The translations under genes were made by a program, and so were the position numbers. Of a stretch of DNA of 64,000 nt, positions 651 through 59,633 are shown one piece after another. The stretch spans positions 1 through 64,000 of the forward strand of contig JAJDYN010000025.1 in the NCBI GenBank assembly GCA_022825135.1, in the 5' to 3' direction. The DNA is from Gemmatimonadota bacterium. Lineage in GTDB: Bacteria > Gemmatimonadota > Gemmatimonadetes > Longimicrobiales > Gaopeijiaceae. Numbering within the stretch: the first letter of the stretch is position 1; the number at the start of each line of letters is the position of its first letter. The notes under the pieces were generated by a model. That model saw only the letters and a list, made by a program, of their open reading frames with translations, was not told the origin of the DNA and did not search any database.

Positions 651-853
651 AGCCGATCCGAATCGCGCGGCACGGTCGTGTCGATTCCGCGCAGAAACCC
701 GCGCGACGCCTCGATGGGCTCGAGGGGGATCAGCTCGATCCGCCCCTTGTATCCGATGGCCTGCAACTTCTGGCCGGGCTCGAGGTCGAGATGCTCGCGC
801 ACATCCTTGGGGATCACAACCTGGAAGCGCGGGGACAGGGTGACGATGGTCAT
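647..853 (-). CDS. AbrB/SpoVT-type antitoxin (VapB-like)
   Basis: A 68-aa protein with the swapped-hairpin AbrB signature: TLSPRFQVVIPKDVREHLDL followed by EPGQKLQAIGY. In this family the N-terminal beta-hairpin dimer binds DNA and the C-terminal tail wraps the cognate toxin, so it is probably both antitoxin and autorepressor. It is the first gene of a two-gene operon with the PIN gene, which it overlaps by 4 nt. Directly upstream lies an array of degenerate 31-bp repeats that could hold its operator. The length is normal for the family. Confidence 0.85.
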   Translation of the reverse strand: MTIVTLSPRFQVVIPKDVREHLDLEPGQKLQAIGYKGRIELIPLEPIEASRGFLRGIDTTVPRDSDRL

Positions 854-31435: not shown

Positions 31436-33877
31436 CTACCCCGCCTGCCCGCGTCCGGGCCGCGGGCCACGAGGGGATCCTCTCGATTCCGGGGGCGAGT
31501 CTCGCAGGACGCGGGCAGTCGGCTCCGCGGGGCGGTCGTCCGGCGCGGGCATCAAATAGCCCACTCTTCGCTCGTTGACGATGTAGGCCGGCCGTGCCCC
31601 GTCCTCCCCCAGCTTGTGGCGGAGCCTCTTCACTACGGCATGCACGAGCCTCGGGTTGGCGGAGCCCCGATAGCGAGTGCCCCAGGCGCGGCGCAACAGG
31701 GCGCGGTAGGTCAACACTCGTCCGTGGTTGGTCGAGAGCACGCGCAGCAGCTCGTACTCGGTGGCGGTGAGCTCCAGTGGCCGGCCTCCGAGGGTCACCC
31801 GGCGTCGATCGTAGTCGATGGCCAGCGCCCTCAGCTGGAAGGACGCGGGCTCGGCGCGGCTGCGCAGTGCCGCCCGGATCCTCGCCGTCAACTCCGTCGC
31901 CGAGAACGGCTTGACGATGTAATCGGCGGCTCCGGCCTCGAGAGCCTTCGCGATTGTCTCGTCCCGCCCGTAGGCCGAGACGAAGATGACCGGCACATCG
32001 GTCAGCTCGGGAACCTGCTCCATCAGCTTGATGCCGTCCGTCCCCGGCAACATCAGATCGAGCAGGACCAGGCGGGGTTTCTCCTTGCGAATGAGGCGCG
32101 GCAGTTCCCGAGGCTCGCCCGTCGCCACTACGGCATACCCTGCCGTGGTGAGCGTATCGCGGACATGGAGCAGCGCTTGCGGATCGTCGTCCACCACCAG
32201 GATGCGTGTCACCTCCCGGCCTGAACGCTCGCGTCGCTGTGAGGAGGATTCCGACTCCGTCACGTCGCTGCCGGCCTCCTCGGCGGCAGGGACGGTGAAC
32301 GTGAACCGGGCGCCCCGGCCCTCCCCGTCGCTCCGCGCCCAGATGCGCCCTCCGTGCGCCTCTACCAGTCCCTTGCAGATGGCGAGGCCCAGGCCGGTCG
32401 CCACGCCACGCCTTCCCTCATCCGCACCGGTCCGCTTGGCGAACAGGTGCGCGAGCCGCTCGCGCGCGATGCCTTTGCCGTGGTCGGAGACGGAGATCGC
32501 CACATGGACGCCGTCCCGCCGCGCCCTGATCTCGATGGGGGATGATGCCTCGGAGTATCTCGACGCATTGGCGAGGAGGTTGCTGAGGACCTGCACGATG
32601 CGCTGCCGGTCGACCATCACGTTCGGCAGGTCCGGAGCAAGGTCGACCCGCACGCTGTGTCGGCCGCCGGCGTTCAGGAACGTGTTCCTCGCCCGGTCGA
32701 TCAGCCCTCCGACGTCCGAGGCTTCGGACGAGATCGACAAGGTCCCCGTCGCGATTCGCCCCGCATCCAGCAGGTCGCCCATGAGGACGCTCATGTTGTC
32801 GGCATGCTCGTCGATGATCCGGAAGAACTGCAGCATCTCCGCGTTAGCGAGGCGCCTTGAGGCGGCGAGCACCGTGGCCGACGAGCCTTTTATGGCGGCA
32901 AGAGGCGCGTGCAGCTCGTGGCTCACGATCGCCAGGAACTCGGTCCGCATCCGCTCGAGTTCGTCAAAGGGCGCCAGGTACTGGATGGTGACCACGACGG
33001 AGTCGACGCTACCGTCGGCCTCATGGATCGGCGTCAGGTTGATGAGCGTCTTCACGCTGCGGCCATCCGGAACCGAAAGCTCGATTTCCTCGGCACGCAG
33101 TGTCTCGGCGCTGCTCAGCTCGTGCGCCAGCGCGACTTCCTTCAAGGCGATCTCCCGCCCGTCGCCGAGCCGGCAGGTAACCGATTCCAGCAGTTCCATC
33201 GTGGACCCGCCAGGCATCTGCAGGGCTCGGACGATTCGTTTCGCCTCCCGGTTGATCGACACCGGGTTTCCGGTCCTGGCGTCCACGACCACCACACCGA
33301 CCGGCGATGTATCGACGAGGGTTTCCACCTTCGCCCGCGCACGCTGCTCGCCCCGAAACATGCGGGCGTTGGCGATCGCCGTCGCCGCTTGCGACGCCAA
33401 CAGCACGAGAACCTCTTCGTCCTCGGAGGTGAACTCGCCGCCCCCGTCCTTTCCGGCGAGGAAGAAGCTGCCGACGTAGATGCCCCGATGACGGATCGGC
33501 GTGCCCTGCAGCGTCCTGGATGGAAGCGCGACTGGCGAAAAACCGAGCGACCGGAGCCAGGTCGCCACGTCTCCGACCCGCACGGCACCCGGCAGGTCCC
33601 GGAAGTGCTCGAAGACCCGGAGCCCATCTTCCCACTCCTCAAGCAGCCGCAGCTGCTCCTGTGTCAGGCCGGAGGCGAGGTAGAGCCCGGGGTCGCCCGC
33701 GTCGTCGACGGTAGCGATCAGGCCGTGGCGGGCCCCGGTCAGGGCGCGGGCGCTGTCGACGACATCCTGCAGGACCGTCTCAAGGTCCAGGCTCGCGTTG
33801 ATGCGCAGGAGCGCGGCGCATAGTGCCGAGATGCGCTCCTGCAGCGCTTCAGTTCGCGCGTCCGGGTGCTCTGTCAC
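31436..33877 (-). CDS. Hybrid sensor kinase fused to response regulator and OmpR-type DNA-binding domain
   Basis: An 813-aa single-chain two-component system. In order: a GAF-like domain (about 10-195, starting near LLRINASLDLETVL), a PAS-like domain (about 205-320), HisKA with His320 in AIVSHELHAPLAAIK, HATPase_c (NLLANASRYSE, GKGIARE, GLGLAICKGLVEAHGG), REC with Asp607 in LVLLDLMLPGTDG and Lys in YIVKPF, and an OmpR-type winged helix (LELTATEYELLRVL to YIVNERRVGYLM). No membrane span is seen, so it senses a cytosolic signal. GTG at 33877 is chosen because the domain similarity starts there. Divergent from a LuxR gene. Normal systems split these domains between two proteins. Confidence 0.88.
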   Translation of the reverse strand: MTEHPDARTEALQERISALCAALLRINASLDLETVLQDVVDSARALTGARHGLIATVDDAGDPGLYLASGLTQEQLRLLEEWEDGLRVFEHFRDLPGAVRVGDVATWLRSLGFSPVALPSRTLQGTPIRHRGIYVGSFFLAGKDGGGEFTSEDEEVLVLLASQAATAIANARMFRGEQRARAKVETLVDTSPVGVVVVDARTGNPVSINREAKRIVRALQMPGGSTMELLESVTCRLGDGREIALKEVALAHELSSAETLRAEEIELSVPDGRSVKTLINLTPIHEADGSVDSVVVTIQYLAPFDELERMRTEFLAIVSHELHAPLAAIKGSSATVLAASRRLANAEMLQFFRIIDEHADNMSVLMGDLLDAGRIATGTLSISSEASDVGGLIDRARNTFLNAGGRHSVRVDLAPDLPNVMVDRQRIVQVLSNLLANASRYSEASSPIEIRARRDGVHVAISVSDHGKGIARERLAHLFAKRTGADEGRRGVATGLGLAICKGLVEAHGGRIWARSDGEGRGARFTFTVPAAEEAGSDVTESESSSQRRERSGREVTRILVVDDDPQALLHVRDTLTTAGYAVVATGEPRELPRLIRKEKPRLVLLDLMLPGTDGIKLMEQVPELTDVPVIFVSAYGRDETIAKALEAGAADYIVKPFSATELTARIRAALRSRAEPASFQLRALAIDYDRRRVTLGGRPLELTATEYELLRVLSTNHGRVLTYRALLRRAWGTRYRGSANPRLVHAVVKRLRHKLGEDGARPAYIVNERRVGYLMPAPDDRPAEPTARVLRDSPPESRGSPRGPRPGRGQAG

Positions 33878-34628
33878 CGACTCGCCCTCCCCGAAGCTCG
33901 CCCGGCCTGTCCCAGGTGCGTTTCCCGTCGGCGACCATCGGACCGGGCGTTGCCCAATGCGATACCAGAGCTTTTCGCGATCTTCGCTCGTGGCTTCATC
34001 TAAAGGTAGCTGATGCCGTGTGATCTGTAAGCTATATTTCCCGGCAGATTGGTGATTTCTTGGTGACAACACCGACGCCTGCATGCCGAGGCTCCATCTC
34101 CGCGCGTCCCTGAGTCCCGTACGGCAGTGTGTGTCGCAGGGATTTCAGGCCGGTGATCGAATCCCGGGGACAGGACGACCGGGAAGGGTCCGTGCCTGCG
34201 CGGCATCAACCCCGGAGGGCGGATCGTCGCCCTGAACTCCGGGACGGTGCCGAGCGTGGTCGACCACCGGGCGTCCCCCCAGTCAGGCGTTCTGCAGGCC
34301 GCGGCCGACGCGACCGGCGCGCGTCTCGCGCGCTCGTCGCGCGAGGAGATGCGCCGTGGCGGAGACGGCAGCGGGAGGCGCCTGTGCCTACGCGAGTCCA
34401 ATATCACCAACAGATTGCAATAATGGCACCATCTGTCGCCCGCGGGTCGCAGACGAAGTTGTAAGTTTATTGGAGTAGTTGATTGCTGCATTGGACTCCG
34501 GGCCAGGGCCGCCGCAGATACCGGCATCTTCCGAGCGCAGTTCACGCGCTTGATCTGCCCAACACCGCCGGACGGGGAAGAGCGTGGACCGGAGGCGCGC
34601 GCGCAGGCGACCCGTCAAGACAGGTGCC
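33878..34628. other. 750-bp intergenic region between divergent regulators
   Basis: This gap separates the hybrid kinase (minus) from the LuxR gene (plus). Its two ends (about 34000-34075 and 34395-34485) are AT-richer than the surroundings and should contain the two promoters. An 11-bp direct repeat is annotated separately. The middle (34200-34400) has an open plus-strand frame without a start that reads GINPGGRIVALNSGTVPSVV and looks coding-like; it may be a gene remnant, but I cannot assign it to a family. No RNA gene was seen. Confidence 0.5.
34049..34066. promoter_or_regulatory. 11-bp direct repeat, OmpR/PhoB-type operator candidate
   Basis: TTGGTGA occurs at 34049-34055 and again at 34060-34066, exactly 11 bp apart. 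OmpR/PhoB-family winged helices typically bind tandem half-sites with 11-bp spacing. The site lies about 170 bp upstream of the hybrid kinase whose last domain is of that type, so autoregulation is plausible. A single inverted copy (TCACCAA) sits at 34404-34410 near the LuxR side. Confidence 0.45.
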
Positions 34629-35780
34629 ATGAACCCACAGGATCTGTTCGAGCGCGGGGTGGTGACGCTGCAGGAGGCCGCGCTCGGCAAGGCGCGCTGG
34701 TCGGAGGCGGCGTTGCTGATCAGCGAGATCAGCGGGACGAGGGGCAACGCTCTGGCGTTTGCCGACGGTCGCACCCAGGCTGATGCGCACGTGCTGTTCA
34801 CGCGGCTGTGCCACGATGGCGAGCACCGAGAGGACCTCGAGAGGGAGTACTTCCGGGAGTACTGGGCACGGGACGAGAGCGTCCCCCGCGTCGGTCGTCT
34901 GCCGGATGGAGCGCTGGTGCCCACCGCCGATCTGTACACGAAACGGGAGAGGGCGAGGTCGCCGGCGTACACCGAAGCGAGGCGCAGGACGGCGATGCAG
35001 AACGGCCTCAACGTGCGGTTGGACGGGCCGGGCGGATCGCACATCGTTCTGAGTCTCGCGGACTCCCTGGAACCGGGAGGCTGGACGTCGCCTCAGCTCG
35101 CCGCGGTCCGGTGCCTGCTGCCGCACGTTCGCCAGTTCGTGCGCGTGCGCGCGACGCTCATTGATGCCCGGGCGCCGGGATGCTCGCTCCTCCCCTTGCT
35201 CGAGAACAGCCGTTGCGGCGTCATCCAACTCGACCGGAACGCCCGGATCGTTGCCGCTAACGACCGCGCCTGCGTTCTGCTGCGACAGGGCGAAGAGCTG
35301 TCGGACAGGGACGGCTTGCTGAGCGCCACGACGCCTCGGGACAACGGCGAGTTGCAGCAATTGCTGGCTCAGGCGCTGCCCCGGCTCGGCGGGGCCGGCT
35401 CGTCCGGCTCGATGACGATCGAGCGCCCGTCGTCCCGCACGAACCTGGTGGTGCACGTAACTCCCGTTTCCGTGCGCCAGCGGGAGTTCCGCGCCAGGCA
35501 GGTCGCCGCACTCGTCCTGGTCGCCGACCCGGAAAGCACGCCCACGATCGACGACCGCCTGGTGCAGGCGGCGCTCGACCTGACCCCGGCCGAGAGCCGG
35601 CTGGCGGTAATGGTGGCCGCCGGGCAACACGCGCGCGACATCGCTGCGCACACGGGACGCAGCGAAGCGACGGTGCGCTGGCACATTCAGAACATCTTCC
35701 GCAAACAGGGGATCTCGGCTCAGGCGGACCTGGTGCGGCGCGTATTGTCGCTGGCAGGCTTTCCCGACTTCCGCCCCTGA
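34629..35780 (+). CDS. LuxR-family transcriptional regulator with PAS-like sensor
   Basis: A 383-aa regulator. The C-terminal 60 residues are a LuxR/GerE helix-turn-helix: LTPAESRLAVMVAAGQHARD, then AAHTGRSEATVRWHIQNIF and KQGISAQADLVRRVL. The middle (about 180-290) looks PAS-like, with SRCGVIQLDRNARIVAANDR. The N-terminal 150 residues are helical and not recognised. ATG at 34629 (MNPQDLFERG) is preferred to the longer Arg-rich form from 34584. It is divergent from the hybrid kinase. The ligand or signal is unknown. Confidence 0.8.
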   Translation: MNPQDLFERGVVTLQEAALGKARWSEAALLISEISGTRGNALAFADGRTQADAHVLFTRLCHDGEHREDLEREYFREYWARDESVPRVGRLPDGALVPTADLYTKRERARSPAYTEARRRTAMQNGLNVRLDGPGGSHIVLSLADSLEPGGWTSPQLAAVRCLLPHVRQFVRVRATLIDARAPGCSLLPLLENSRCGVIQLDRNARIVAANDRACVLLRQGEELSDRDGLLSATTPRDNGELQQLLAQALPRLGGAGSSGSMTIERPSSRTNLVVHVTPVSVRQREFRARQVAALVLVADPESTPTIDDRLVQAALDLTPAESRLAVMVAAGQHARDIAAHTGRSEATVRWHIQNIFRKQGISAQADLVRRVLSLAGFPDFRP

Positions 35781-35792
35781 CGCCGGACCCAC

Positions 35793-35823
35793 GCGGGCCT
35801 CGCCGTACCTTCAGTCGGCGGCC
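35793..35823. repeat. 31-bp direct repeat, copy downstream of the TnpB-like gene
   Basis: An exact copy of 35974-36004, beginning GCGGGCCTCGCCGTACC and ending CAGTCGGCGGCC. The two copies are 181 bp apart, in the same orientation. This one lies just after the LuxR stop, outside any gene. The other encodes WHGRRLKVRRG in the TnpB-like protein. It marks a local duplication or a deletion junction at the 3' end of the TnpB-like gene. Confidence 0.85.
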
Positions 35824-35917
35824 CTACGGGGACGGCGCGTTTCTCGCCCCCGCTGATTCGTTCCGACCTTCGCAGACGACTACAGAGCTTTCGGCCTTCG
35901 CGTCCGCGATTCGCGTT

Positions 35918-36925
35918 TCAGCGACCGGCTCCCCGGTCTCCGCGCGCGTTGGGGAATGCCGTCCCCGGTTTCGGCGGGCCTCGCCGTACCTTCAGTCGGC
36001 GGCCGTGCCACTCGGCCTTGTACTCGAGTTGGCGCAGCAGTTCGCTGCTCGCGCCCTCGACTTCGATCTCGCGGGCTTCGTGCACGACGCCGGTCGTCGC
36101 CTTGTGCTGCAGGTCGCCCTTGCGGTTTCTCACCTTGCGCGCCTGGTTGCGCACCAGGGCCAGAGTGCGCTTGCGGCCTTCCGACCCGAATTCACATCGC
36201 GCCAATTGCCGCTCGAGCCTCGCCAGGCGGCGTCTCGCCTTCCGCAGCGCCTTGCTCTCGCGGAACACGCGGACGGGCTCTCCGTCGACGGACACCGTGA
36301 TCTCTTCGGCCCCTTGATGAACCGATGCCTTGTCCGTCCCCGGCTCGACGGGGATAAGCGGCGCGCACTCGAACAGGCACGAGAGCATCCAGCGGTGTCC
36401 CGCATCCAGCCAGACCCGGCCCGAGAGCAGGCCACGTGTCTTGCGTCCGGGGGGCCCGGAGAGCCTGCCGCGGGGGAGACTCCCGCCCTTGCAGCGCATC
36501 CAGCCGTACCTGGGCAGCCGCACCCGGTTGCCTTCGAAGCGGATGCCCTGGTTGCTCAGATAGATGCCGGGCTCCCGGCCGAACGTCTTGATTCGGGGGG
36601 ATCCGCCCTTCCCGCGTCTGCCGGCCTTCCTGAACCAGTTGCGGAACGCCACGTCGAGATCGACAGCCACACGGTAGATGGCGCTGGCGGGGCAGCCCGG
36701 GCCCGCCGCCTGGCCGCGCCAGTCCCGGGTCAGTGCCCGCAGCTCGGCCATGGTCGGCCGCCGTCCGCTCTCACCGTAGCTGAGGTGCGATTTGGCGAGC
36801 AGCGTATTGGAGAGCTCGCGCAGGCCGTACCTGCACCGGAGCAGAGCCGAGTCCTGCGCCGGACTCGGGTAGAGTCTGCAGCGCCAGCCCACGTAGCGCC
36901 GGGCAGCCGATGCGTCCACGGTCAC
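35918..36925 (-). CDS. TnpB-like protein, nuclease-inactivated and shortened
   Basis: A 335-aa protein of the IS200/IS605 TnpB family. The N-terminal part is well kept: YVGWRCRLYPSPAQDSALLR, ASAIYRVAVDLDVAFRNWFR, then GIRFEGNRVRLPRYGWMR. The bridge-like helix SKALRKARRRLARLERQL and LEYKAEWHGRRL are also clear. The RuvC-I motif (normally GIDLG) reads SVHQGAEEITVSVDGEPV, putting His203 where the catalytic Asp should be. The Glu of RuvC-II survives (EIEVEG), but the DLNVKGML segment after it is gone, as are the zinc-finger cysteines and the RuvC-III Asp. GTG at 36925 overlaps the stop of the HTH gene (GTGA). It resembles nuclease-dead TnpB repressors (TldR), or it is a decaying copy. Confidence 0.8.
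   Translation of the reverse strand: MTVDASAARRYVGWRCRLYPSPAQDSALLRCRYGLRELSNTLLAKSHLSYGESGRRPTMAELRALTRDWRGQAAGPGCPASAIYRVAVDLDVAFRNWFRKAGRRGKGGSPRIKTFGREPGIYLSNQGIRFEGNRVRLPRYGWMRCKGGSLPRGRLSGPPGRKTRGLLSGRVWLDAGHRWMLSCLFECAPLIPVEPGTDKASVHQGAEEITVSVDGEPVRVFRESKALRKARRRLARLERQLARCEFGSEGRKRTLALVRNQARKVRNRKGDLQHKATTGVVHEAREIEVEGASSELLRQLEYKAEWHGRRLKVRRGPPKPGTAFPNARGDRGAGR
35974..36004. repeat. 31-bp direct repeat, copy inside the TnpB-like gene
   Basis: An exact match to 35793-35823. It lies in the last 90 nt of the TnpB-like reading frame, where an intact family member would continue into its zinc finger. GGGGACGGC (35828-35836) and GCCGTCCCC (35958-35966) form an inverted pair between the two copies, reminiscent of element-end hairpins. 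Confidence 0.85.
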
Positions 36926-37893
36926 GTGGCCTGCTCCACGGGCGCCCGCGTGGGATCCGGATCGTTCCTCTTCGACCCGTTGGCGGGGCGGGGCTCCCAC
37001 ACGGAATCGACCCACTCACTGAATCGCCCGACGACCCGTTCCGGATCCTCGGCCGCCGCCGCGAGCGTGCAGCCGGCGAACCGCGTGAAGTTGATTTCCA
37101 GCGTGCGCCGCCGCAGGCCCACCTGGTCGGCGATCGCGGCCCAGCCGGCCCCGGCGCGGGCGCGAACGGCCCAGAGGAGGACGGCCCAGTTCATGAGCTC
37201 CTTCAGGCGGCACCGGAGCGGTGCGTCTTCTCTCCAGTACTGCCTCAACGTGGAGCCGGCCAGATTGACCTGGCCCGCCAGCCGGTGAACTGAACTGGCC
37301 GGCACGAACCGGGTCGCGGACGGGTCGTCGTGCAGGCCGCAAACCCGGCTGATCGCCTCCCTGACGGGCGGCCTGAAGGACGGGTCGGAGAGCAGCCTCA
37401 GGCCGAGGCGGCGCATCGGATCCGGGTTCGGCCTCCCGAACTCCTCCAGAACTTCCACGAGGCGGCCCTCCGCCTCGTCCGCCCATACGACCCGCAACCC
37501 GCCGGAGCGGAGCGGTTCCAGGCGCCGCAGGCACTCCGCCGAGATCCGCGCCACGACGACGCAGGGCGGATTGAGAGGCCCGGAGACGGACCGCAGCCAC
37601 TCAAGGTCGGCGTCGGAGCAGGAGGCGAGCCCGTAGACGACCGGGCAGGCGCTCATGGACGGCGCCAGGAGTTCTCTTCTCGAACGTACGCGCTGGATCG
37701 ATGCGCCGGCGAGCGCCCGCAGCAGCAGGTCTCCAAGCTCGCTGTCCTTGCGCAGTACAGCGCGTAGATGAGGCGTTCCGATCTGATCCGTGCCTCCCGG
37801 TGCAGGACGGGCGGTCGCGATGCCATAACCGCTTGCCCGTGTGCGCTCGACTATCGCAATATGGCAGGAGCGCGGTTTCGTCGCGCCTTTCAA
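36922..37893 (-). CDS. AraC-like HTH regulator coupled to the TnpB-like gene
   Basis: A 323-aa protein from a TTG at 37893; the true start is uncertain because no ribosome site is clear. The C-terminal region resembles an AraC double HTH: VHRLAGQVNLAGSTLRQYWR followed by LKELMNWAVLLWAVRARAGA, then AAIADQVGLRRRTLEINFTR. The N-terminal 180 residues have a Rossmann-like pattern (CPVVYGLASCSDADLEWL, CVVVARISAECLRRL) and may be a degenerate receiver or ligand domain. It ends in a GTGA overlap with the TnpB-like start, so both are made from one transcript. An AT-rich region lies upstream. The DNA target is unknown. Confidence 0.65.
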   Translation of the reverse strand: MKGATKPRSCHIAIVERTRASGYGIATARPAPGGTDQIGTPHLRAVLRKDSELGDLLLRALAGASIQRVRSRRELLAPSMSACPVVYGLASCSDADLEWLRSVSGPLNPPCVVVARISAECLRRLEPLRSGGLRVVWADEAEGRLVEVLEEFGRPNPDPMRRLGLRLLSDPSFRPPVREAISRVCGLHDDPSATRFVPASSVHRLAGQVNLAGSTLRQYWREDAPLRCRLKELMNWAVLLWAVRARAGAGWAAIADQVGLRRRTLEINFTRFAGCTLAAAAEDPERVVGRFSEWVDSVWEPRPANGSKRNDPDPTRAPVEQAT

Positions 37894-38232
37894 GACAATA
37901 GGGTCAACCCCATTTTCCTGGATGGTATCATGCCCACCATTTTTTTGGGGGTACCGCCGACCGCCGGATCACTGCCAAAGCACATTGTCCAAGATAGTCG
38001 TCGTTTCTTTCGTATATATCACCGCGTTTTTTTCGTTTCAGAAAACAGTGGCCGGTTTCAATAATCCGAGATTTTTCGTGGATGTCGGGTGCCGTGAAGA
38101 AGGTTGATAGTCCGTAACTGATTGAAAAACAAGAAGCTCTCAAATTTGGCACCACTTTTGCGATTCCCGGGGCACGCGACTCTGCCCAGCCACTTCAGGC
38201 CGGTATTCATTCCCCACCACTCAGGAGGTTCC
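37894..38232. other. AT-rich divergent intergenic region
   Basis: A 339-bp gap between the HTH gene (minus) and the repeat lipoprotein (plus). It is clearly richer in A+T than its flanks, with runs ATTTTTTTG (37938-37948) and GTTTTTTTCG (38026-38035) and TATATA at 38013-38018. It probably contains both promoters. A good ribosome site (AGGAGG at 38223) serves the lipoprotein. I found no convincing gene, RNA or clear -35/-10 pair with normal spacing. The composition shift could mark the edge of acquired DNA. Confidence 0.55.
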
Positions 38233-41200
38233 ATGAACCGACTCAAACTCCTTGCCACAGCGACGCTGATGGCCCTGACCCTCACCGCCTGCGACGAGGG
38301 CACTCCGCCGCCTGTGGAGCCGCCCCCGCCCCCGACTCCCGTGGGAACCATCTCCGGGACGGTGACGATCGAAGGGACGGCCGCCAGCGGCATCACCGCC
38401 ACTCTGTCGTCGGGTGCGACCACGACGACGGGGTCGGGTGGCAGCTTCGCCTTCTCGGGCGTTGAAGCCGGGACCTACACGGTCACCATCAGCGGCTTCC
38501 CCGAGGACGCGACGTTCGCCCAGGTGACGCAGTCCGCGACCATCGCCACCGATGGTCAGAACGTGCAACTCAACTTCGCCGGCGAGTATGTCCGCTCCTC
38601 GGCGGTGGTCGGCAGCGTGGTTGCGGCCGACGCCATGATGAGCGGCGGCGACGGCCAGCCCGAGACGCTGGCAGGCGTAACGGTCACGCTCGATGGCGAG
38701 CACGCCATGGGCGAGACCACGGAGACCGGCATGGACGGCGGCTTCGCCTTCACCGGGCTTCGCGCGGGCACCTACACGGTCACGATCTCGGACTTCCCGG
38801 AGGACGTGTCCTTCGAGACGGTGAGCGTCGAGGTCGAGGTTGAGGTGGGCGAAGTCGGCAGCGCCGACTTCACGGGCCACTTCATCCGCACCTCCGCGGT
38901 CGAGGGCGAAGTGATCATCGACGGCGACGGCCTTGCCGGCGTTACGGTCACCCTGAGCGGCGGTCCGGCCGACGAGAGCTACACGATGCTGACCGATGCC
39001 GACGGCACGTTCCGGTTCGAGGAACTGCGCCCCGGCGACTACACGGTCGAGATCGCGGACTTCGACCCCAGGGACTACGAGTTCGCGGCCACGTCGCGGG
39101 ACGTGAGCGTGGACCTCGACGAGACGGGAACGGTGTCGTTCACCGGGGTGCTGCTCCGCACCTCCGGCATCAGCGGCCGGGTGAGCGTCGAGGGCATGGG
39201 GCTCGACGGCATCGAGGTCACGCTGGCGGATGGTGACGAGAGCCGCACCGCGATGACCGCGAACGGTGGCCAGTACTCCTTCGCGGGCCTGGCGGCGGGC
39301 GACTACACGGTCTCGATCTCGGTCGAGAGCGACGCGTACGTGTTCGAGTCGATGAGCCAGGACGTGACGGTCGGCGACGACGAGTCGGCGATCGTGAGCT
39401 TCGAGGGCGCGCACGCGCGCACCGCGAGCGTCTCGGGCATGGTGTTCATCGACGAGGCGACCAAGAACGACATGTTCGACGAGGGCGAGGCGCCGCTCGC
39501 ACACGCCGGGATTCCGGTGGCGCTGGTGGGCCCGGGCGTCAACGAGCAGCGTTTGGGCGCGACCGACGCGAACGGTCAGTTCTCGTTCACAGGGCTGCGC
39601 TCCGGCCCGTACCAGCTGGTGGTGCTCATCAACGCCGATGTCGCGGCAGCGCTCGCCGCCGCCGACCTCGCGTACGGCGGACCGGGCGAGGGCTACGGGA
39701 TCGACGTCGGCGTCGGCGAAGCCGCGTCGCAGGCCATTCCTTTCGACATCACGCACACGACGGTCAACTTCACGGTCACGCTGAAGGCGGGCGAGATGCG
39801 CGGCATGCCGGTTCCCGGCGCGGCCGTGACGCTCTACTCGGACGCGGCCGGCGAGACCAGGGTTGGCGGCGGTGAGACGGGTGACGACGGCATGGTGGCG
39901 ATCCGGGTCGCGCGCGCCGGCACCAGCGGGAACACAGTCCACGCGGGCGTGAGTGCCGAGGGCTACCACGTGGCCGACGGGATGACGGCGGTGATGTGGG
40001 ATCCGCAGCTCCCGGCGACTGCGGGCGCGAACGACAACGACATCGTCAACCTGAACGTCGACGCGACCGTCGACGGCGCCACGATCACCACCGACTACGG
40101 TGGAGGCGAGGCGCTCGCGGGCTGGGCGATCAGCGTCATGTCCGGCGAGGACGCGGTCGAAGGCGCGCCGGAGATGCTGGACGACGACGGCAACGCGGCG
40201 TTCAGGACCACCGTCGGAGTGGACGACCTGCCCGCGAGCTTCACCGTGGCGGTCGCCGAGGACCAGGACGACGAGCTGGACGGCGGCGAGAACTACGACG
40301 GTGGCTCGGTCGAGTACACGCACACCGGCCTCATGCTGGCGGGCACGCAGGACATCGGCACGCTCGAGGTGGCATTCACGACCCAGACCCTCAAGGTCTA
40401 CGCGCACCACGAGCGTGACCAGGTCACGGGCTTCACCGGCAACGTCCTGGGCGGCGACGTGAGGGACGACGGCAAGATTTCCGTCAGCATCCGCTACATC
40501 GACGACAGCGGACGCTCCCGCTCGTTCGTGAGCGCGGACAGCATCGGCCGCAGCAGCAAGGACGGGGTCACCACCTTCACCAACGTGCCGGCCGACCGGA
40601 ACGTCATCGTGCACGCGGAAGACGGGCAGGACCCGGATGACGACGATTACGTGCCCATCCTGCTCCTCGACGAGGGCGGGCACGCCGATGAGCTGGCGGC
40701 CTTCACGGACACGGACGCCAACGGCATCACCGGCGGCCACTTCGGCGCGCACGGCGGCTACAGCCACACCGTTGAGCTCTGCCCCCTGCAGGCCAGCAAT
40801 CCGCAGGACCACGGCGAGTGCTCGTCGTTCGCCTACGTGAGCACGTACAGCGTGAGCGGACTGGTGTGGAAGAGGGGCGTCGTGAAGGACGGCGACGACT
40901 TCGAGGTGAAGGACGCCGTGTTCGTACCCGGGCAGACCGTCAGCCTGTCGCCGGTCGACGGAGAGAACCTCGCGGGTGAGGAGCAGTCCTACACCACCGC
41001 CGAGAAGGACACCCGGAAAGACAAGACCAAGGGCCTCGACGCGACCCACCAGTTCGAGTTCGAGGACGTCGCTTCGGGCGTGTACGCGCTCGGCATTCCG
41101 GACGGATGGCGGGCGATGGTCGGTGGGATGGGCGCCGAAGACGACAAGTTCGACGACGAGTTGGACCCGCTCGGTGACAACCTCGAGCTGGACGTCACGC

Positions 41201-42810
41201 CGAAGACGGCCACGGTCTACGGCCGCATCACCGGCTCCGACGGCTTCGGTGTCGACAGCGTGAGCGTGAGCGTGGGCGGTCAGACGGGCATGACCGACGC
41301 CCTTGGCCGCTACATCCTGGACGGCATCCCCGCCGGCAAGAAGTTCGTTTTCTCGGCCTCCAGGGGCGGTTCGTCCAGCAAGACGGACAGTCTCGCTTTC
41401 GCCGCCAACACAGTCACGAAGATGGACGACCTCGACTTGTCGGCGGCGTCCCAGACCGCGTCCATCAGCGGCAGGGTAACAGCCTCCGGCAGCGGCGACC
41501 CGATCGCGGGCGTGGAAATCAGGGTGGACGGCAAGGCTCCGCAGAACGCCGCCACGAGCGGTACGAACAAGGGCAAGCTCGTGACAGGCGCCGACGGCAC
41601 CTACACGGCGGTCATCGAGGCCAAGCCGCTGGGCCAGAGCGCCAATGTGACCGCGTCGAAGAGGGGCATGTCCTTCATCCCCAACGAGGCTCAGGGGCAT
41701 GACGTGCCGGCTCACGCCAATGCCGAGATCTCGGGCATCAACTTCACCGGCTTCCTGCACGCCACGATCACCGGCAGAGTGGTCGCGGCGGGTGGCGGGC
41801 CGCAGATGGGCGTTGTCATCGAGGCGAGGCCGGCGGGCGCGGCAGCAGATGCCGATCCTGCAGATGCCGACACCACGGGCGTGACGGGTACCTTCTCGCT
41901 CAGCGTGCCGTTCGGCACCTACACCCTCACGGCGTCGCTGGAGAACCACATCTTCGATCCTCCGTCGCCGACGGCGACCAACCCCTGGAACGCGAACACG
42001 GCTCCCGGCCAGACCGTGAGCTTCGGCAACATCCAGGCGAAGACGGCGATGGCCAGAGGTGTCAGCGCGATTCGTGCGACGACGACCGATTCGACGACCA
42101 CGGAAGGGGTCCACGTCACGACCTACAGCGGCAGCGTCACGGTGAGGTGGACGGGCAGCGCCGAAGACGTGCCGGCAGGGTACGCCAACGCTACGTACAG
42201 CGTTGAGACCAACACCGGTGCCGACGGTGCCTGGGAGAGCGCCAGCGCCACGCTCGCCGGCGGAGATACGACCGGACTCGCCAGATTCCCCGCCGGCACA
42301 AACGACGGCGAGGTCATGGTTCGGGTCGTAGCCACGGCTCAGAACAGCCTCGACGTGGATCCGCAGCATGCCGAAGCGCTGGTCCTCCGATCCGCTGCCA
42401 CGACGCTTGCGGCAGTTGATCCGTCGGTCACCAGTGTCGAGGCGGCACGTGATACCGCAAACGCGGATCTGATCAGGGTCGGCTGGCGCGCCAGGTCGAA
42501 CGGCCGGACGAACCAGCGGGTTGTGGTACGGTTCAGCGATGGCATCTGGTACGTCGCATCCGGCGGTACCCCCGCGACCATCATCTCCGACACCAGGTCG
42601 TGGAGTCTGGATGCGAGCACTGTCGCCACCACCGATTCCTGGACCTCGGTTGACGGTACGGCTACCAGGCAGGCCAACGCCGAGCTCGCGAAGGCGTTCG
42701 ACGTCGCGGTGGAGACGCGGCAGCCGGGTGTCACTCAGAATGAGGACGGCGAGGACATCTGGTTGCGCAGCGCGGTACAGGCTGTCGGTGCGAAGCCGGC
42801 CGGCGGCTAG
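38233..42810 (+). CDS. Large surface lipoprotein with tandem beta-sandwich (CnaB/CarboxypepD_reg-like) repeats
   Basis: A 1525-aa lipoprotein: the signal ends in the lipobox MALTLTACDEG, followed by a Pro-rich linker. At least five repeats of about 80-90 residues follow in the first 450 residues, each with a core like TISGTVTIEG, a GSFAFSGVEAGTYTVTISGF strand pair, and an FEG/FTG ending. Later segments repeat the pattern more loosely (TVYGRITGSDGFGVDSVSVS, ASISGRVTASGSGDPIAGVE, ATITGRVVAAGGGPQMGVVI). The last 250 residues resemble a fibronectin-like tail. Composition is acidic and free of enzyme motifs, so a structural or adhesive surface role is likely. ATG at 38233 follows AGGAGG. Confidence 0.85.
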   Translation: MNRLKLLATATLMALTLTACDEGTPPPVEPPPPPTPVGTISGTVTIEGTAASGITATLSSGATTTTGSGGSFAFSGVEAGTYTVTISGFPEDATFAQVTQSATIATDGQNVQLNFAGEYVRSSAVVGSVVAADAMMSGGDGQPETLAGVTVTLDGEHAMGETTETGMDGGFAFTGLRAGTYTVTISDFPEDVSFETVSVEVEVEVGEVGSADFTGHFIRTSAVEGEVIIDGDGLAGVTVTLSGGPADESYTMLTDADGTFRFEELRPGDYTVEIADFDPRDYEFAATSRDVSVDLDETGTVSFTGVLLRTSGISGRVSVEGMGLDGIEVTLADGDESRTAMTANGGQYSFAGLAAGDYTVSISVESDAYVFESMSQDVTVGDDESAIVSFEGAHARTASVSGMVFIDEATKNDMFDEGEAPLAHAGIPVALVGPGVNEQRLGATDANGQFSFTGLRSGPYQLVVLINADVAAALAAADLAYGGPGEGYGIDVGVGEAASQAIPFDITHTTVNFTVTLKAGEMRGMPVPGAAVTLYSDAAGETRVGGGETGDDGMVAIRVARAGTSGNTVHAGVSAEGYHVADGMTAVMWDPQLPATAGANDNDIVNLNVDATVDGATITTDYGGGEALAGWAISVMSGEDAVEGAPEMLDDDGNAAFRTTVGVDDLPASFTVAVAEDQDDELDGGENYDGGSVEYTHTGLMLAGTQDIGTLEVAFTTQTLKVYAHHERDQVTGFTGNVLGGDVRDDGKISVSIRYIDDSGRSRSFVSADSIGRSSKDGVTTFTNVPADRNVIVHAEDGQDPDDDDYVPILLLDEGGHADELAAFTDTDANGITGGHFGAHGGYSHTVELCPLQASNPQDHGECSSFAYVSTYSVSGLVWKRGVVKDGDDFEVKDAVFVPGQTVSLSPVDGENLAGEEQSYTTAEKDTRKDKTKGLDATHQFEFEDVASGVYALGIPDGWRAMVGGMGAEDDKFDDELDPLGDNLELDVTPKTATVYGRITGSDGFGVDSVSVSVGGQTGMTDALGRYILDGIPAGKKFVFSASRGGSSSKTDSLAFAANTVTKMDDLDLSAASQTASISGRVTASGSGDPIAGVEIRVDGKAPQNAATSGTNKGKLVTGADGTYTAVIEAKPLGQSANVTASKRGMSFIPNEAQGHDVPAHANAEISGINFTGFLHATITGRVVAAGGGPQMGVVIEARPAGAAADADPADADTTGVTGTFSLSVPFGTYTLTASLENHIFDPPSPTATNPWNANTAPGQTVSFGNIQAKTAMARGVSAIRATTTDSTTTEGVHVTTYSGSVTVRWTGSAEDVPAGYANATYSVETNTGADGAWESASATLAGGDTTGLARFPAGTNDGEVMVRVVATAQNSLDVDPQHAEALVLRSAATTLAAVDPSVTSVEAARDTANADLIRVGWRARSNGRTNQRVVVRFSDGIWYVASGGTPATIISDTRSWSLDASTVATTDSWTSVDGTATRQANAELAKAFDVAVETRQPGVTQNEDGEDIWLRSAVQAVGAKPAGG

Positions 42811-42964: not shown

Positions 42965-45900
42965 ATGATCCCGAACCAGCCTGGCGTACCCGTCCGTTCC
43001 CTCCTGGCCGCCGCAGTCACATGGGCCTTCCTGGCACCATCGACGGGCGTGCGTGCCGAGGACCCATCTCCGGGCGGTTCGCACGAGGAGGTTCCGTCCC
43101 TTTCGGGAGGCGCTCCCGCAGCGGTCGCCGCCCAGCCCACGACCTCGATTTCATGGAGTTGGATCGGGGCGCCCGCACAGGATTCTGCCCGGCTCACCAT
43201 CCGCTTCTCGGAGAGCGTGACCGGCTTCACGGTCTCCGACCTCAACATCAACTGCGCGCCCCAGCCTGCCGCGGGATGCGCGGAGGCCGTTCCGCTGGCC
43301 AGCGACGCCGGAATGAGCTTTTCCGTCACGTTGAGGATGCCGCAGGACTATGATGGCTTCGTGACGGTCTGGATTCCCTTGAACGTGGTGCCGGAGGGGA
43401 ATCTGCTGTCGAATGTCATCAACCGGGAAGTGGACACCAGAGGTCCTGAAGTCGACGCCGCGCAGGTCAACGGCGACGAAGTCGTCGTCACCTTCGACGA
43501 AGACCTCAATCAGAACTTCGTCCCGCCGTCCAGCGACTTCCAGGTGTCCTTCCTGAGGGGCGGCACGTTCAACGTCGAGACGATATCCCGGGTCGAGTTG
43601 TCGTTGCGCGAGGTGTTCCTGATTCTGGCCAGCCCCGTCGACACGCTGGCCACGGTTCGGGTGTTCTACGACGATCGTGGCGCCAACGCGATCCGGGACC
43701 GGATCGGCAATCGCGCGTCCGGCTTCGACATCGAGGTGGCGAACGTCACGGGAGTGGCGCGCAGCGGGGTTCCCGGCGTACCGGGCGACCTCACGGCGAC
43801 GGCCGACGGCCCCGACGCGATCGAACTGGAGTGGGACGCGCCGACCTCGGATGGCGGCCGCGAAATCACCGGGTACCAGATCGAGGTGTCGGCGGACGGC
43901 GGCGACAACTGGGGCAACCTGGTTCGGAATACCCGGAACACCGACAACTCCTACCGCGACGACGGCCTCTCCGCGGGCGTCACGCGCCACTACCGGGTGT
44001 CGGCGATCAACTTCAACGGGGCGGGAGACCCCTCCAACGTGGCCGGCGCCACCACCGAGGAGGTCGTTCCGGGCGCGCCCCGGTCCTTGACGGCGCTGGC
44101 CCGGGGGACATCGGCCATCGAACTGAGGTGGCGCGCCCCTCCCTCCGGAGGCTCGACGCCGATCACCGGATACCGCATCGAAGTGTCGCGCACCGGCACC
44201 GGCGGGTGGGTGGCGCTCGAAGCCAATACCGAGTCCAGGGCCACATCCTTCAGGCACGACGACCTCAGGCCCAACAGCACCCGCCACTACCGCGTCGCGG
44301 CGATCAACCGGGCCGGCACGAGCCCCTGGTCGGACGTTGCGCGGGCAACCACCGAAGTGGCCGTGCCGGGCGCCCCCACGGGACTACGCGCGACTCCGCG
44401 CGGGATGGGGAGAAGCGACCAGATCCTCCTCACCTGGAATCCCCCGGCCGACGACGGCGGGAGCCCGATCACCGGCTACCGCATCGAGTGGCGTTCCTCC
44501 GGCGCCTCGGACTGGATCATTCTCGTGGCCAGCACCAACAGCACGGTTACCACCTACCTCCACACCGGCCTCCTTCCAGGCACAACCCGCTTCTATCGCG
44601 TGTCCGCCGTTAACAGCCGGGGGACCGGACGCGCCTCCAACGTGGTCGAAGGCACCACCAGCGCAGCGCCTCCCGGACCGCCGCACAACGTGCGTGCGCG
44701 TGGTACCGGGCCGAACAGCGCCCTTCTCGCCTGGGACGCGCCGGAGACCGACGGAGGGGCGCGCGTCACCGGCTATGCCATCCAGCGGATCGGGCCCAGC
44801 GACAACTCGTGGATCACACACCGTTCCAACACGGGGACCACGGCAACCACATTCACGGACACCGGACTGGAGCCGGTGACCCGGTACCAGTACCGGGTTG
44901 CGGCCATCAACGGTGTCGGCCGAGGGGAGTTCTCGCCTTCGCCCCCGTTGCCTCCGGCGGCGGCCATTACGCACGCCGACCTGGCCGGGATCCCGACCGG
45001 GCTGGCGGCCAGGAAGGTCGGCACGTCCCGCATCGACCTGTCGTGGAACGCGCCCCGCTACAGCGGCGGCGTCTCGATCTTCGGCTATCGCATCGAGGCT
45101 TCCGACGACGGGGGCGCGACCTGGAACATCATCCGCCGCAACACCAACTCGACGACGACGACGTTCTCCGATGTGAACCTCCGGCCCGCCACCACGCGGC
45201 ACTACCGCGTGGCCGCGATCAACCTCGCGGGGCTGGGGCCGTTCTCGAACACCGCGCGTGCGACCACCGACGCAACCCTTCCGGGGGTGCCGCGACGTCT
45301 CAACGCCGAGTCGGCGGGCACCTCGCGGATCGACCTCTCCTGGCAGGCGCCCGCGGACGACGGGGGTGCGCGCATCACCGGCTACCGAATCGAGGTCTCG
45401 GCCGACGGGGGCAGGGGTTGGGAGGATCTGGCGGCCAACACGCGCGCCACGACCACCGCCTACACGCACAGCGGGCTCGCGCCGGCCAGTACGCGCCACT
45501 ACCGCGTCTCGGCGGTCAACCGGATCGGGGTGGGCGATGCGTCCCGGGTCGTGGGCTCCACCACCGACGCCACGGCGCCCGACGCGCCCACCGGGCTGGT
45601 GGCAACAGCGGTCACGCCCACGCGGATCGACCTGTTCTGGGTCGCTCCCGCCTACAACGGCGGCGCCCCCATCACCGGCTACCGCATCGAGGTTTCGGAG
45701 AACGCCGCCGCGTGGGCGGACCTGGTGACCAGCACCGAGTCCACGACCACTACGTTCTCGCACGCGGGCCTGCTGCCGGGGAGCACGCGCCACTACCGCG
45801 TCTCGGCGATCAACCGGGCGGGCACCGGCGCGCCATCGGCGAGCGCTTCGGCCGCGACGGACGACCCCGTCCAGCGCGCGGGACGGCTCAACACCCGCGT

Positions 45901-47266
45901 CCTGCCGCATGTGGCGGCCGCGATGACCTCGAGCACCGTCTCGGCGATCGCCCGCCGCGTCGATGCGGTGGCCGGCGGGATGGGCATGGAGCGGCGCGTG
46001 GAGGCGAACGGACTCTCGTCGATGGCCGCGAGCCTCTCGGTGCCGGGTGCCGGCGGCCCCGGCCTCGCGCCAGGCGACCAGCCCGGACTCGCCGCCCTTC
46101 TCGGCGGCACTTCCTTTACCATGCCCTTCGGGGTGTCCGGCGCACCGCGGCAGTCCGCCACGGGCACGCAACTGGCGAGCTGGGGGGCGGGCGAGTACCA
46201 CCACCTTGGCGAACCCGGCCAGAGCGCCCTCGACTGGAAGGGCAACATGGCGAGCGCCCACGCCGGGATTGACGCGCGCGTGGGACCCGGCATCCTGGCG
46301 GGTGTAGCGGGCTCGTACTCCTCGGGCAGCTTCGACTTCACCGACAGGACCGGCGCCACCCCGGTGACCGGCACCTACGGCGCCATCATGACCAGCGTCC
46401 ATCCCTACATGGCCTGGTTCTCGGACGGGGGCGACGCCTCGGTGTGGGGCTCGGCCGGGCTCGGCCGGGGCGAAATCGAGGTCGATGACGCGCGCGAGGG
46501 GCTCCGAACCAGCCACGCCGGCATGTTGACCGGGGCGGGAGGCGCCAGCTACCAGCTGGTCACGCGCGGCCTGGGCGGTGTCCGGGTCAAGGCCGAGGGA
46601 TGGGCCGGCCGGGTCGTGGTCGATGGCGGCGCGCAGATCGAAGAGGTCACGCTGAACATGCGGCGCGGCAAGCTCGCACTGGAGCTGACGCAGGGCTTCC
46701 GTGCCGGCGCGGGTCAGGAGGTGGCGTTGCTGCTCGAGGGCGGGATGCGCTACGACAACGGGGACGGCGTGAACGGCGCCGGCGCGGAAGTCGCCGGCGG
46801 GCTGCGTTACAACAGCTCGAAACTGGGGTTGACCGCCGAGGGCCGCGGCCGGTTCGTCATTCTGGCGCGCGACGGCTACGAGGAGTGGGGCCTCGGGGGC
46901 ATGCTGATGTTCGACCCGGCGACCCGTGGCCAGGGGGTGTCGATCCGGGTGGCGCCGTCATACGGTGACCACCGGAGCGGGGTGAACCAGCTCTGGGAGC
47001 GGGGGATGTACGGCGCGGTGGGCGGCCGCGACCGGGGCATGGGTCCCGGCGTGGACGGCGAGGTCGCCTACGGCATCGCCGGCTTCCAGGGGACGCCCTA
47101 CAGCGCCTTCCAACTGGCCGGGAGCGGCATGCGCGCGTTTACGAGCGGCGTGCGCTACGATCTCGGCGCGGGCGTCGGACTGCGGCTCGAGGGCACCCGG
47201 CGTGTGAGCGGGCTCGGGGGAGCCCGGCACTCGGTGGGCGTCCGTGGAAGGATCAGGTTGCGTTAG
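42965..47266 (+). CDS. Seven-FN3 surface protein with C-terminal autotransporter-like barrel
   Basis: A 1433-aa exported protein. A signal peptide covers residues 1-31. A Cadherin/SbsA-like N-terminal domain (about 45-260, [17 protein letters not shown]) is followed by seven FN3 domains of about 100 residues, each starting [20 protein letters not shown] and similar, and containing ITGYRIEVS and [10 protein letters not shown]. From about residue 975 a helical linker ([20 protein letters not shown]) leads into roughly 330 residues of alternating Gly/aromatic strands ([40 protein letters not shown]) typical of an outer-membrane barrel. The end (RGRIRLR) lacks a terminal aromatic residue. It looks like an adhesin displayed through its own barrel. 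Confidence 0.82.
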
Positions 47267-57947: not shown

Positions 57948-59633
57948 ATGTTCGAGAAAAAGAGGCTGTTCCTGCTGATGGCACTACTCGCCGGCCCCGT
58001 TCTGGTCGTCGGATGTGGCGGCGACGACGAGCCGACACCCGTCGCACCGCCGCCGCCCGAGCCACCGCCGGCGCCGGCCGCGCCTTCCACGCCGACCAAC
58101 GTGCAGGCCGCGCTCGACGCGGGAGCCGGGACCGTATCCGTCAGCTGGAACGCTTCGGCGAACGCGAACACCTATGCGGTGCAGAGGACCGTGGGTGACG
58201 ACTCCGCCGAGACGCTGGCGTCGGGAATCGCCGGCACCTCCTATGTTGACGAGAGCGCCGCGTGGGGCATGGCGCGGTACACCGTCACCGCCACCGGGAC
58301 GGGTGGCACCTCCGCCGCCAGCGCGGCGGTCGAAGTCGGATATGGCGAAGAGGCGCTGTTTCTGCAGGAAGCCTGGGCGAATCGCGTCGATGTCGATCCC
58401 ATGCTCGGCAATCCCTTCGACCGGGGGAATCCGGACTTCCGGCCACAGGCCGGGTCTCCCGCCCTGGAGGGTGCGGCAACGTTCGCGGAGATGACTCCCA
58501 TGGTGTTGGCGCTTCCGCCCGAGGTGGCGGCGGGATTTGCTGCAGCGGCGCCGGCCTTCTTCGATGCGACGGCGAATTACGTTGGCGCGGTGGGCCCGGA
58601 CCACGACTGGACCCAGGAGGGCTGGACGACGTTCGGAGAGGGCGACATGGGTGACATGATGGCCTCGGCAACCGCCATCCTGTCGGGCGAGATCAGCGAT
58701 GTGCGCACGCTTTCTGCGGATACCACCTACACAATCAACGGAATCCTGACCGTCGAGAACGGTGGAGAGCTCCACATTCCCGCCGGAACCCACCTCTATG
58801 GCTCCACCGAGATCCAGCCCAGCGCTCTCATCGTCAGGGTGGGGGGCAAGCTGTTCTCGGAGGGAACCGAGGACGCGCCGGTCGTATTCACAAGCGCCAA
58901 CCCCCCCGAGGAGAGGCAGAAGGGCGATTGGGGCGGTGTGGTCCTCAACGGTGCCTCGCTGTGCAACTTCCCCGCTGGCGAGTGCGTTGGCGAAGGGAGT
59001 TCGGGAGAATACGGGGGCGACAACCGCGCGGACGATTCCGGTGTGATCGCCTACACCCGAATCGAGTACGCCGGATACGAGATCAGCTTCGGCAACGAGC
59101 TCAACGCGCTGACCATGAACGGCGTGGGCAACGGCACCACCATCCACCACGTGCAGACGCATGCGGGGTCGGACGACGGCTTCGAGTGGTTCGGCGGGAC
59201 CGTCAACACGAAGTACCTCCTGGCTACTGACATTTCGGACGACTCGTTCGACTATTCCACCGGCTTTCAGGGCATGGGCCAGTTCTGGCTCGCCCAGCAG
59301 GATCCCAACGACGCCGACAACGGCTTTGAAGTGGACGGCAACGAAGACGACTACAACGCCACGCCGTACACCCTTCCGTTGCTGGCCAACATCACACTGG
59401 TCGGCAAGGGCGTCGATGGCGCCGGCGGCACCGAGGGCGAGTCGGTCGACGGGCTCAGGCTGCGTCGTGGGACCGGTGGCATCATCACCAACGCCCTCAT
59501 CATCGGGTTTGGGGATGACGGGCTGGATATCGACAACGCGGAGACGCTGGAGCGAGCCAAGGCGGGTACGTTCGCCGTCACTTTCTCGATAATCGACATG
59601 AATGCGGCCGCCTTCGAAAGCCCTGGCAGCTAA
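57948..59633 (+). CDS. FN3 / right-handed beta-helix lipoprotein paired with the TonB receptor
   Basis: A 561-aa lipoprotein. The lipobox is VLVVGCGGDD at residue 23, followed by a Pro-rich linker and one FN3-like domain (about 45-135). From about residue 235 the sequence has the pattern of a right-handed beta-helix: YTINGILTVENGGELHIPAG, ALIVRVGGKLFSEGTEDAPV, GVIAYTRIEYAGYEIS and TIHHVQTHAGSDDGFEWFG. Such lipoproteins next to a TonB receptor often act as surface ligand-binding partners. ACAGGAGAAAC precedes the ATG. It is probably in one operon with the receptor. Confidence 0.82.
   Translation: MFEKKRLFLLMALLAGPVLVVGCGGDDEPTPVAPPPPEPPPAPAAPSTPTNVQAALDAGAGTVSVSWNASANANTYAVQRTVGDDSAETLASGIAGTSYVDESAAWGMARYTVTATGTGGTSAASAAVEVGYGEEALFLQEAWANRVDVDPMLGNPFDRGNPDFRPQAGSPALEGAATFAEMTPMVLALPPEVAAGFAAAAPAFFDATANYVGAVGPDHDWTQEGWTTFGEGDMGDMMASATAILSGEISDVRTLSADTTYTINGILTVENGGELHIPAGTHLYGSTEIQPSALIVRVGGKLFSEGTEDAPVVFTSANPPEERQKGDWGGVVLNGASLCNFPAGECVGEGSSGEYGGDNRADDSGVIAYTRIEYAGYEISFGNELNALTMNGVGNGTTIHHVQTHAGSDDGFEWFGGTVNTKYLLATDISDDSFDYSTGFQGMGQFWLAQQDPNDADNGFEVDGNEDDYNATPYTLPLLANITLVGKGVDGAGGTEGESVDGLRLRRGTGGIITNALIIGFGDDGLDIDNAETLERAKAGTFAVTFSIIDMNAAAFESPGS

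Follow-up and report, generated by a model that had tools for sequence, protein, structure and literature searches.

The question raised by this locus is whether a TnpB-like protein that has lost its catalytic centre, and whose gene overlaps a helix-turn-helix (HTH) gene, has been kept for a regulatory task or is the remnant of an insertion sequence (IS). The locus lies in the window, which is the whole stretch of 64,000 nucleotides (nt) that was analysed (C37:1-64000), from a contig of a 3.54-Mb metagenome-assembled genome (MAG; 41 contigs, 93% complete) of the Candidatus Palauibacter type of Gemmatimonadota. The relatives compared belong to one genus by kinship; the window copy is named WIN and the copies of the relatives are named G1a and so on. 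On balance, we lean towards the reading that the gene encodes a domesticated nuclease-dead TnpB of a TldR-like design that acts as an RNA-dependent regulator, so far seen in one Gemmatimonadota genus. The domestication of the dead TnpB, which the original prediction had proposed, is well supported by sequence comparison because the orthologues are open, the frame is under purifying selection, the RNA-like scaffold at the gene end is conserved, the neighbours recur, and no Y1 transposase was found. The dead copies number 24, with the short pieces G008:C16 and G002:C404 and the orphan scaffold pieces left out; this number includes G10a-d, which nearly duplicate G3 copies. The coordinates of all features are listed in Table 1.

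The frame at 35918-36925 (-) is a TnpB homologue. The longer frame 35918-37015 (-) was matched by Pfam OrfB_IS605 (E 2.4e-8, 34.6 bits, cut-off 30.5) and by NCBIfam guided_TnpB (E 6e-20, 71.9 bits, under the cut-off of 100). The start at 37015 is probably wrong because G9a and G1a have a stop between 37015 and GTG 36925, which is the likely start. This GTG overlaps the stop of the HTH gene (36924-36922) by GTGA, exactly as had been noticed earlier. The AlphaFold2 model of the window protein (predicted local distance difference test (pLDDT) 78.6, predicted template modelling score (pTM) 0.53) was built from an alignment of 21 rows, six of which are canonical TnpBs. The structure comparison that had been proposed as a check returned ISDra2 TnpB (8h1j) as the best solved structure in Foldseek, with an E-value of 1.9e-20. 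The profile of the 21-row alignment also matched 8h1j (E 1.5e-111), which is no test of the window protein alone because that profile contains canonical TnpBs.

The loss of the catalytic centre was examined in an alignment of 20 dead copies (the near-duplicates G10a-d were left out) and six canonical TnpBs. The RuvC-I motif of the window protein reads ASVHQG, in which His replaces Asp; the RuvC-II Glu is retained, and the zinc finger and RuvC-III are missing. The earlier description of a nuclease-dead TnpB-like frame is confirmed. The RuvC-I Asp is replaced in all 20 aligned dead copies (Glu in G10e; His, Arg or Ala elsewhere), and the zinc finger and RuvC-III are absent in 18 of them. The 17 reduced copies all have this module deleted; they carry His (window) or Arg (the 16 others) in the RuvC-I Asp column, and 15 of them still have the RuvC-II Glu. 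G10e is another dead copy in which the C-terminal module is missing. G1d and G3e have Ala at both RuvC-I and RuvC-III and retain the four zinc cysteines. The unrooted FastTree tree exhibits the 17 reduced copies as one group (support 0.994), joins G1d and G3e to them with a support of just 0.717, and splits the 20 dead copies from the RuvC-complete and canonical sequences (0.889). With this support at the G1d/G3e node, stepwise loss of the catalytic parts is no more than a suggestion. By alignment, the window protein is not a catalytically complete TnpB, which is a trait of IS200/IS605.

The orthologue search and the measurement of the ratio of nonsynonymous to synonymous substitution rates (dN/dS), both of which the original prediction had named as checks, gave results consistent with a kept protein. 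Copies at 71-89% identity were found in nine of ten same-genus genomes, up to several per genome; the genome without a copy (G006) is 67% complete. Outside the genus, weak TnpB matches were found in 3 of 87 genomes. All 17 distinct cores are without any stop. When the window copy is compared with 14 close copies, dN/dS is 0.257-0.377; for two distant copies, the values are 0.455 and 0.573. Judged from these ratios, the TnpB-like frame is under purifying selection in several genomes. The Y1 transposase (Y1_Tnp) was found in none of 11 genomes, which are incomplete assemblies, and a control search matched in 5 of 14. Two outside sources of the dead TnpB were considered and rejected, i.e. a phage source (three records at 22-23% identity) and a viral-contig source (identity not above 28% in the best 80 of 153).

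These results bear on the alternative that the copies are slowly decaying IS200/IS605-type remnants that are carried along by duplication of surface-gene cassettes. The loss of RuvC-III and the zinc finger would fit such decay, as would the flanks past the scaffold that differ between copies, the altered C-termini of WIN and G4a, and the broken HTH N-termini. However, dN/dS values of 0.26-0.38, cores that are stop-free throughout, a scaffold that is less variable than synonymous sites, and the absence of the Y1 transposase from the 11 incomplete genomes searched all speak against it. Simple IS-element decay, which had been named as the main alternative, is made unlikely by the dN/dS values, the stop-free cores, and the conserved scaffold, and slow decay of remnants carried along by cassette duplication is regarded as improbable.

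The second line of evidence for a domesticated TnpB is the region at the 3' end of the gene, which goes beyond the original prediction. In the alignment of 21 copies, the DNA is nearly identical across the gene end and 27 noncoding bases up to GAATCAG, past which the paralogues diverge abruptly; the mean identity across this boundary drops from about 0.95 to 0.16 (14 copies). The scaffolds of G3d, G10d, and G9b end differently, with ACTCAATA in place of GAATCAG. Over 13 copies (78 pairs), the proportion of synonymous differences (pS) falls from 0.319 in the gene body to 0.070 in the last 49 codons; the 27 noncoding bases after the stop differ by 0.028. This set leaves out WIN and G4a (frameshifted C-termini), G3d and G9b (distant), and the G10 copies (near-duplicates). 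WIN and G4a have a common one-base deletion that changes the protein C-terminus and leaves the RNA letters unchanged. RNAalifold on the close copies gave a two-sided change in 1 of 43 pairs; these copies are almost invariant, and distant copies were therefore added to the helix comparison. Among the resulting 18 scaffolds, three of which come from one locus, paired changes on both strands were seen in helices H1b (one row) and H3out (five rows), with a bias towards paired letters since the helix strands were chosen by pattern. No match above the gathering scores was found with Rfam. Taken together, the comparisons show an omegaRNA/guide RNA (gRNA)-like element that is conserved with the protein core.

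Copies of the scaffold also occur on their own. An orphan copy of 215 bp (scaffold plus 11 nt) is found in G3 and G10, which are near-duplicate genomes at that place. There, at L100:11730-14119 (likewise in L099), two 215-bp scaffold copies enclose about 2 kb that contain at least one gene, which we take to be AbiEi-like, and the first 11 letters past GAATCAG are identical in both copies. The genome of the window also has another scaffold type, the one seen in G3d and G9b, at the end of contig C4 (L207 6998-7089); the letters after it are the same as in G9 by eye, and the assembly yielded no TnpB frame that belongs to it. Three scaffold copies surround the zinc-finger-bearing G1d (L103:8074-10011), i.e. 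upstream, at the 3' end, and past that end, ahead of the lipoprotein gene.

Selection might act on the RNA or DNA element alone, which could, for instance, serve for recombination or insertion at a cassette edge, with the protein as a passenger. The scaffold is the most conserved stretch, the pair of scaffold copies with about 2 kb and at least one gene between them in G3 and G10 fits such a site, and so do the surface genes that have dead TnpBs on both sides in G1 and G3. Purifying selection at the protein level along the core argues against a passenger, and this explanation is considered highly improbable.

The upstream partner can be named AraC-like only, because the best HTH_18 score is under the cut-off (18.6 bits against 33.6 for the HTH proteins). 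No match to HTH_18 was found for the window HTH frame or for L062, and no HTH_18 or HTH_AraC match to the partner protein exceeds its cut-off. The Foldseek matches are mostly of the AraC type at E >0.01, from a model with a pLDDT of 58.3 that is good for a hint only. The two nearest full-length orthologues (L061 and L062) begin with MASR..YALYC(K/T)DS. The window equivalent of this start, ATG 37826, lies in another frame than the HTH domain, and a small frameshift in the window gene is concluded from this; it is possibly an assembly error. The earlier reading of the gene from TTG 37893 is thus doubtful, and ATG 37656 may be the start. The four-base stop/start overlap with the start codon in place is present in 10 of 14 loci, and by eye also in L067 (G10b). 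The pairing of the HTH gene with the dead TnpB is real at many copies. HTH relatives without TnpB were also seen (L110-L119; paired in some loci), and their neighbours often include a conserved gene that looks hydrolase-like by eye, together with a hybrid histidine kinase.

Giant repeat-protein genes (c4, c5, and c6) are beside or within 4 kb of 22 of the 24 dead copies. The remaining two, G4b and G7b, are undecided, their contigs being cut off within about 0.5 kb of the HTH side; G7b has a c5 gene 7.4 kb away on the opposite side. The neighbour of G8a is a c6-type piece only, and the nearest member of the set to G1c is a c5 gene at 3.7 kb. In G1 and G3, the dead TnpBs flank the surface-gene set on both sides. 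The RuvC-complete relatives G1e, G8b, and G1f do not adjoin c4; G8b has a c6-cluster gene at a distance of 4 kb. In the sequences compared, the neighbour at 38233-42810 recurs at other copies, which the original prediction had not reported. The products of c4, c5, and c6 are probably on the cell surface, and the genes may form an operon.

The sigma54-type motif TGGCA(C/T)-N5-TTGC is present upstream of all 14 c4 starts that were located by an N-terminal motif. In 13 of the 14 loci, its distance to the start is 78-86 bases (counted from an internal ATG in one of them); in L156, the distance is larger. The motif occurs 25 times in 1.67 million base-strands, the 14 c4 sites included. Besides this site, the c4-family lipoprotein genes have long conserved upstream blocks.

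The mechanism that we propose for the RNA-dependent regulator is conditional. The TnpB-like protein would be translated after the AraC-like HTH protein via the overlapping stop and start codons, and would bind the scaffold after this has been cut out of the 3' end of the protein's own message. The ribonucleoprotein (RNP) complex would bind DNA without cutting it and would alter the transcription of the adjoining surface-protein genes or of paralogues elsewhere in the genome. The HTH protein would act at or near the divergent sigma54-type promoter. A short guide past GAATCAG may direct the binding. In a bolder version, which is a slim possibility, the complex of dead TnpB and RNA would join an AraC-like activator in a two-part, RNA-directed switch that determines which of several sigma54-driven giant surface lipoproteins the bacterium displays, with the whole C-terminal catalytic module gone and a guide that is perhaps very short or none.

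Several observations weigh against this mechanism. The N-terminal part of the HTH protein is lost in six genomes (G2a, G3a, G7a, G8a, G9a, and G10a), the window HTH gene is frameshifted, G3b has a TAG within the aligned stretch, and the HTH gene was not called at G1c, G3d, G1d, and G3e. The coupling that had been claimed thus holds for many copies but is not obligatory, because of the four uncalled copies and the six genomes with N-terminal loss. Folded as a single sequence, the window scaffold is unexceptional (z -1.0, not significant), and the likeness of the scaffolds could also be explained by gene conversion. Among 20 further c4-family stretches, several of which end at contig ends, no dead TnpB was seen; the link therefore runs from dead TnpB to c4 and not in reverse.

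The search for guide targets belongs with these points. The window guide was taken as the 20 bases past GAATCAG (35833-35852), and the whole-genome scans covered this guide and one guide common to four orthologues. In its own genome, the window guide has five non-self sites, each with three mismatches (one in the reversed control); the common guide has only self sites at three mismatches or fewer in the four genomes. No target was found by 20-nt and 16-nt guide scans of the retrieved loci. Short guide matches in those loci, including the regions upstream of the lipoprotein genes, are at the level of shuffled guides, in a control that covers 30-149 kb per genome (a few per cent of each). Two candidate sites were set aside: the 17/20 match at window position 59012, which lies inside the frame 57948-59633 and is one of the five sites with three mismatches, and a 7-nt likeness by eye between the G1d guide and its own sigma54-type site, which was judged to be chance. 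The first guide letters are unlike between the orthologues WIN, G4a, and G5a. The hairpin at the guide place beats shuffled sequences in G4a (z -2.8), G5a (-2.6), G3d (-5.3), and G9b (-3.1), and the predicted structures look more like a terminator; the remaining 10 of the 14 folded copies, WIN included, have no outstanding hairpin there.

These results make a guide-less RNP the main rival, i.e. a protein that binds its own 3' RNA and has lost targeting. Such a complex would act by means of the protein and the structured RNA; it might autoregulate or attenuate the HTH-TnpB mRNA, for instance, or be a partner of the HTH protein. The missing targets, the hairpins that two sets of relatives have at the guide place (with letters that differ in G3d and G9b), and the unlike guide letters of WIN, G4a, and G5a are consistent with it. 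On the other side, a sharp scaffold boundary is retained in 21 aligned copies, and it is at this boundary that a TnpB guide begins; the orphan copy also shares 11 nt beyond it. Seeds of 6 nt are enough for one known TldR according to PMC13418256, and a sequence search cannot detect them or decide on guidance for that reason. In the present test, which looked for a guide complementary to a regulatory target next to a transposon-adjacent motif (TAM), seeds of 6-11 nt are indistinguishable from chance matches. The guide-less RNP is rated as a modest possibility. The original prediction is thus supported in part, for the domestication; RNA guidance is possible, and no guide target was found in these scans.

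Table 1. Positions of the features in the window.
Feature	Position	Strand	Remark
TnpB-like nuclease-dead protein	35918..36925	-	335 aa, GTG start; profile matches, fold, alignment
His203 codon, RuvC-I Asp position	36317..36319	-	alignment; codon position by eye
omegaRNA/gRNA-like scaffold + 11 nt	35842..36055	-	corresponds to the 215-bp orphan unit of two relatives
31-bp repeat, first copy (within scaffold)	35974..36004	-	
31-bp repeat, second copy (past scaffold)	35793..35823	-	close copies also in G4a and G5a
Putative guide position	35827..35852	-	predicted hairpin, also in G4a and G5a; window no better than shuffles, z +0.6
AraC-like HTH gene, stretch that aligns collinearly with full-length orthologues	36922..37656	-	N-terminal part frameshifted in the window
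Sigma54-type -24/-12 site	38147..38161	+	upstream of the neighbouring lipoprotein gene
Giant putative lipoprotein c4	38233..42810	+	1525 aa, CarboxypepD_reg/SdrD_B repeats, transcribed away from the HTH gene
Fibronectin-III repeat protein c5	43217..47266	+	1349 aa
PAS/LuxR-type regulator c3	34629..35780	+	convergent with the TnpB-like gene
Hybrid histidine kinase-response regulator c1	31436..33877	-	

The system can be compared with known systems. Similar to the fliC- and csrA-linked TldR clades, it has a nuclease-dead TnpB, a 3' gRNA scaffold, a stable link to non-transposon genes, and surface-structure neighbours; according to PMC13418256, the csrA-linked TldRs likewise adjoin another regulator. 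The TldR traits found here are the TnpB homology and fold, the RuvC loss, purifying selection, a scaffold that appears sharp-edged in the alignments, and the stable gene link. Unlike TldR, the host is a member of Gemmatimonadota, the neighbours are an HTH gene and giant repeat proteins, and a guide target was not found in this work. The zinc finger and RuvC-III are wholly deleted here, which may be a further difference. A new TldR-like clade is probable; none of this kind was found in the titles and abstract openings of the literature matches listed, although one may have been published all the same.

The fold is similar to that of ISDra2 TnpB (8h1j), which takes its RNA from the 3' end of the gene that encodes it. 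Unlike ISDra2 TnpB, the catalytic Asp and the C-terminal module are lost, and the Y1 transposase was not found. The dCas12f systems, which partner with a sigma factor, offer a further likeness. By the title of the Foldseek match, dCas12f (PDB 9n9c) is also a nuclease-dead RNA-binding relative, possibly with a transcription-factor partner; the partner here is an HTH protein, TnpB structures outrank Cas12f in Foldseek, and no CRISPR array was found at the gene (34500-39500), where only the 31-bp repeat occurs twice, 181 bp apart. Compared with AraC/XylS-type regulators, the C-terminal part of the HTH protein has weak HTH_18 and mostly AraC-type Foldseek matches; these are below the curated cut-offs or at E >0.01, and no family was assigned to the N-terminal domain.

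Other observations were made in the same genus. Repeats of about 36 nt (GTCGCAACGGCGAGATTACCGGGTCGCGAGTGCCAC) with a spacing of 33-37 nt are present at L120:8245-8501, less regular ones of the same kind at L123:1205-1530, and two partial copies at L121:9874-9979, each beside a RuvC-complete TnpB/Cas12f-like protein. PADLOC assigned the L121 protein to Cas12u4 (E 9e-36) and the L120 protein to Cas12f (E 8e-35), and these loci look like a small type V CRISPR system. At window positions 243-853, adjoining small genes resemble by eye a pair of PIN-type toxin and AbrB-type antitoxin. The MAG records VYDD, VXNP, JAPPJO, and JAPPHB are titled Gammaproteobacteria but share genus-specific genes with Gemmatimonadetes records, and their labels look wrong. 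Other records with close relatives of the TnpB-like protein are titled Gemmatimonadetes, BD2-11 clade, and 'Candidatus Palauibacter'.

If the reading of a domesticated, RNA-dependent TnpB is true, the findings in this work would extend the TnpB-derived RNA-guided transcription factors to a new phylum. An HTH transcription factor would then be a partner, and giant surface lipoproteins would be neighbours, of a kind new to these systems. One genus has both RuvC point mutants with the zinc finger and copies without the whole C-terminal module, and the minimal TnpB for RNA-dependent regulation would therefore be directly testable.
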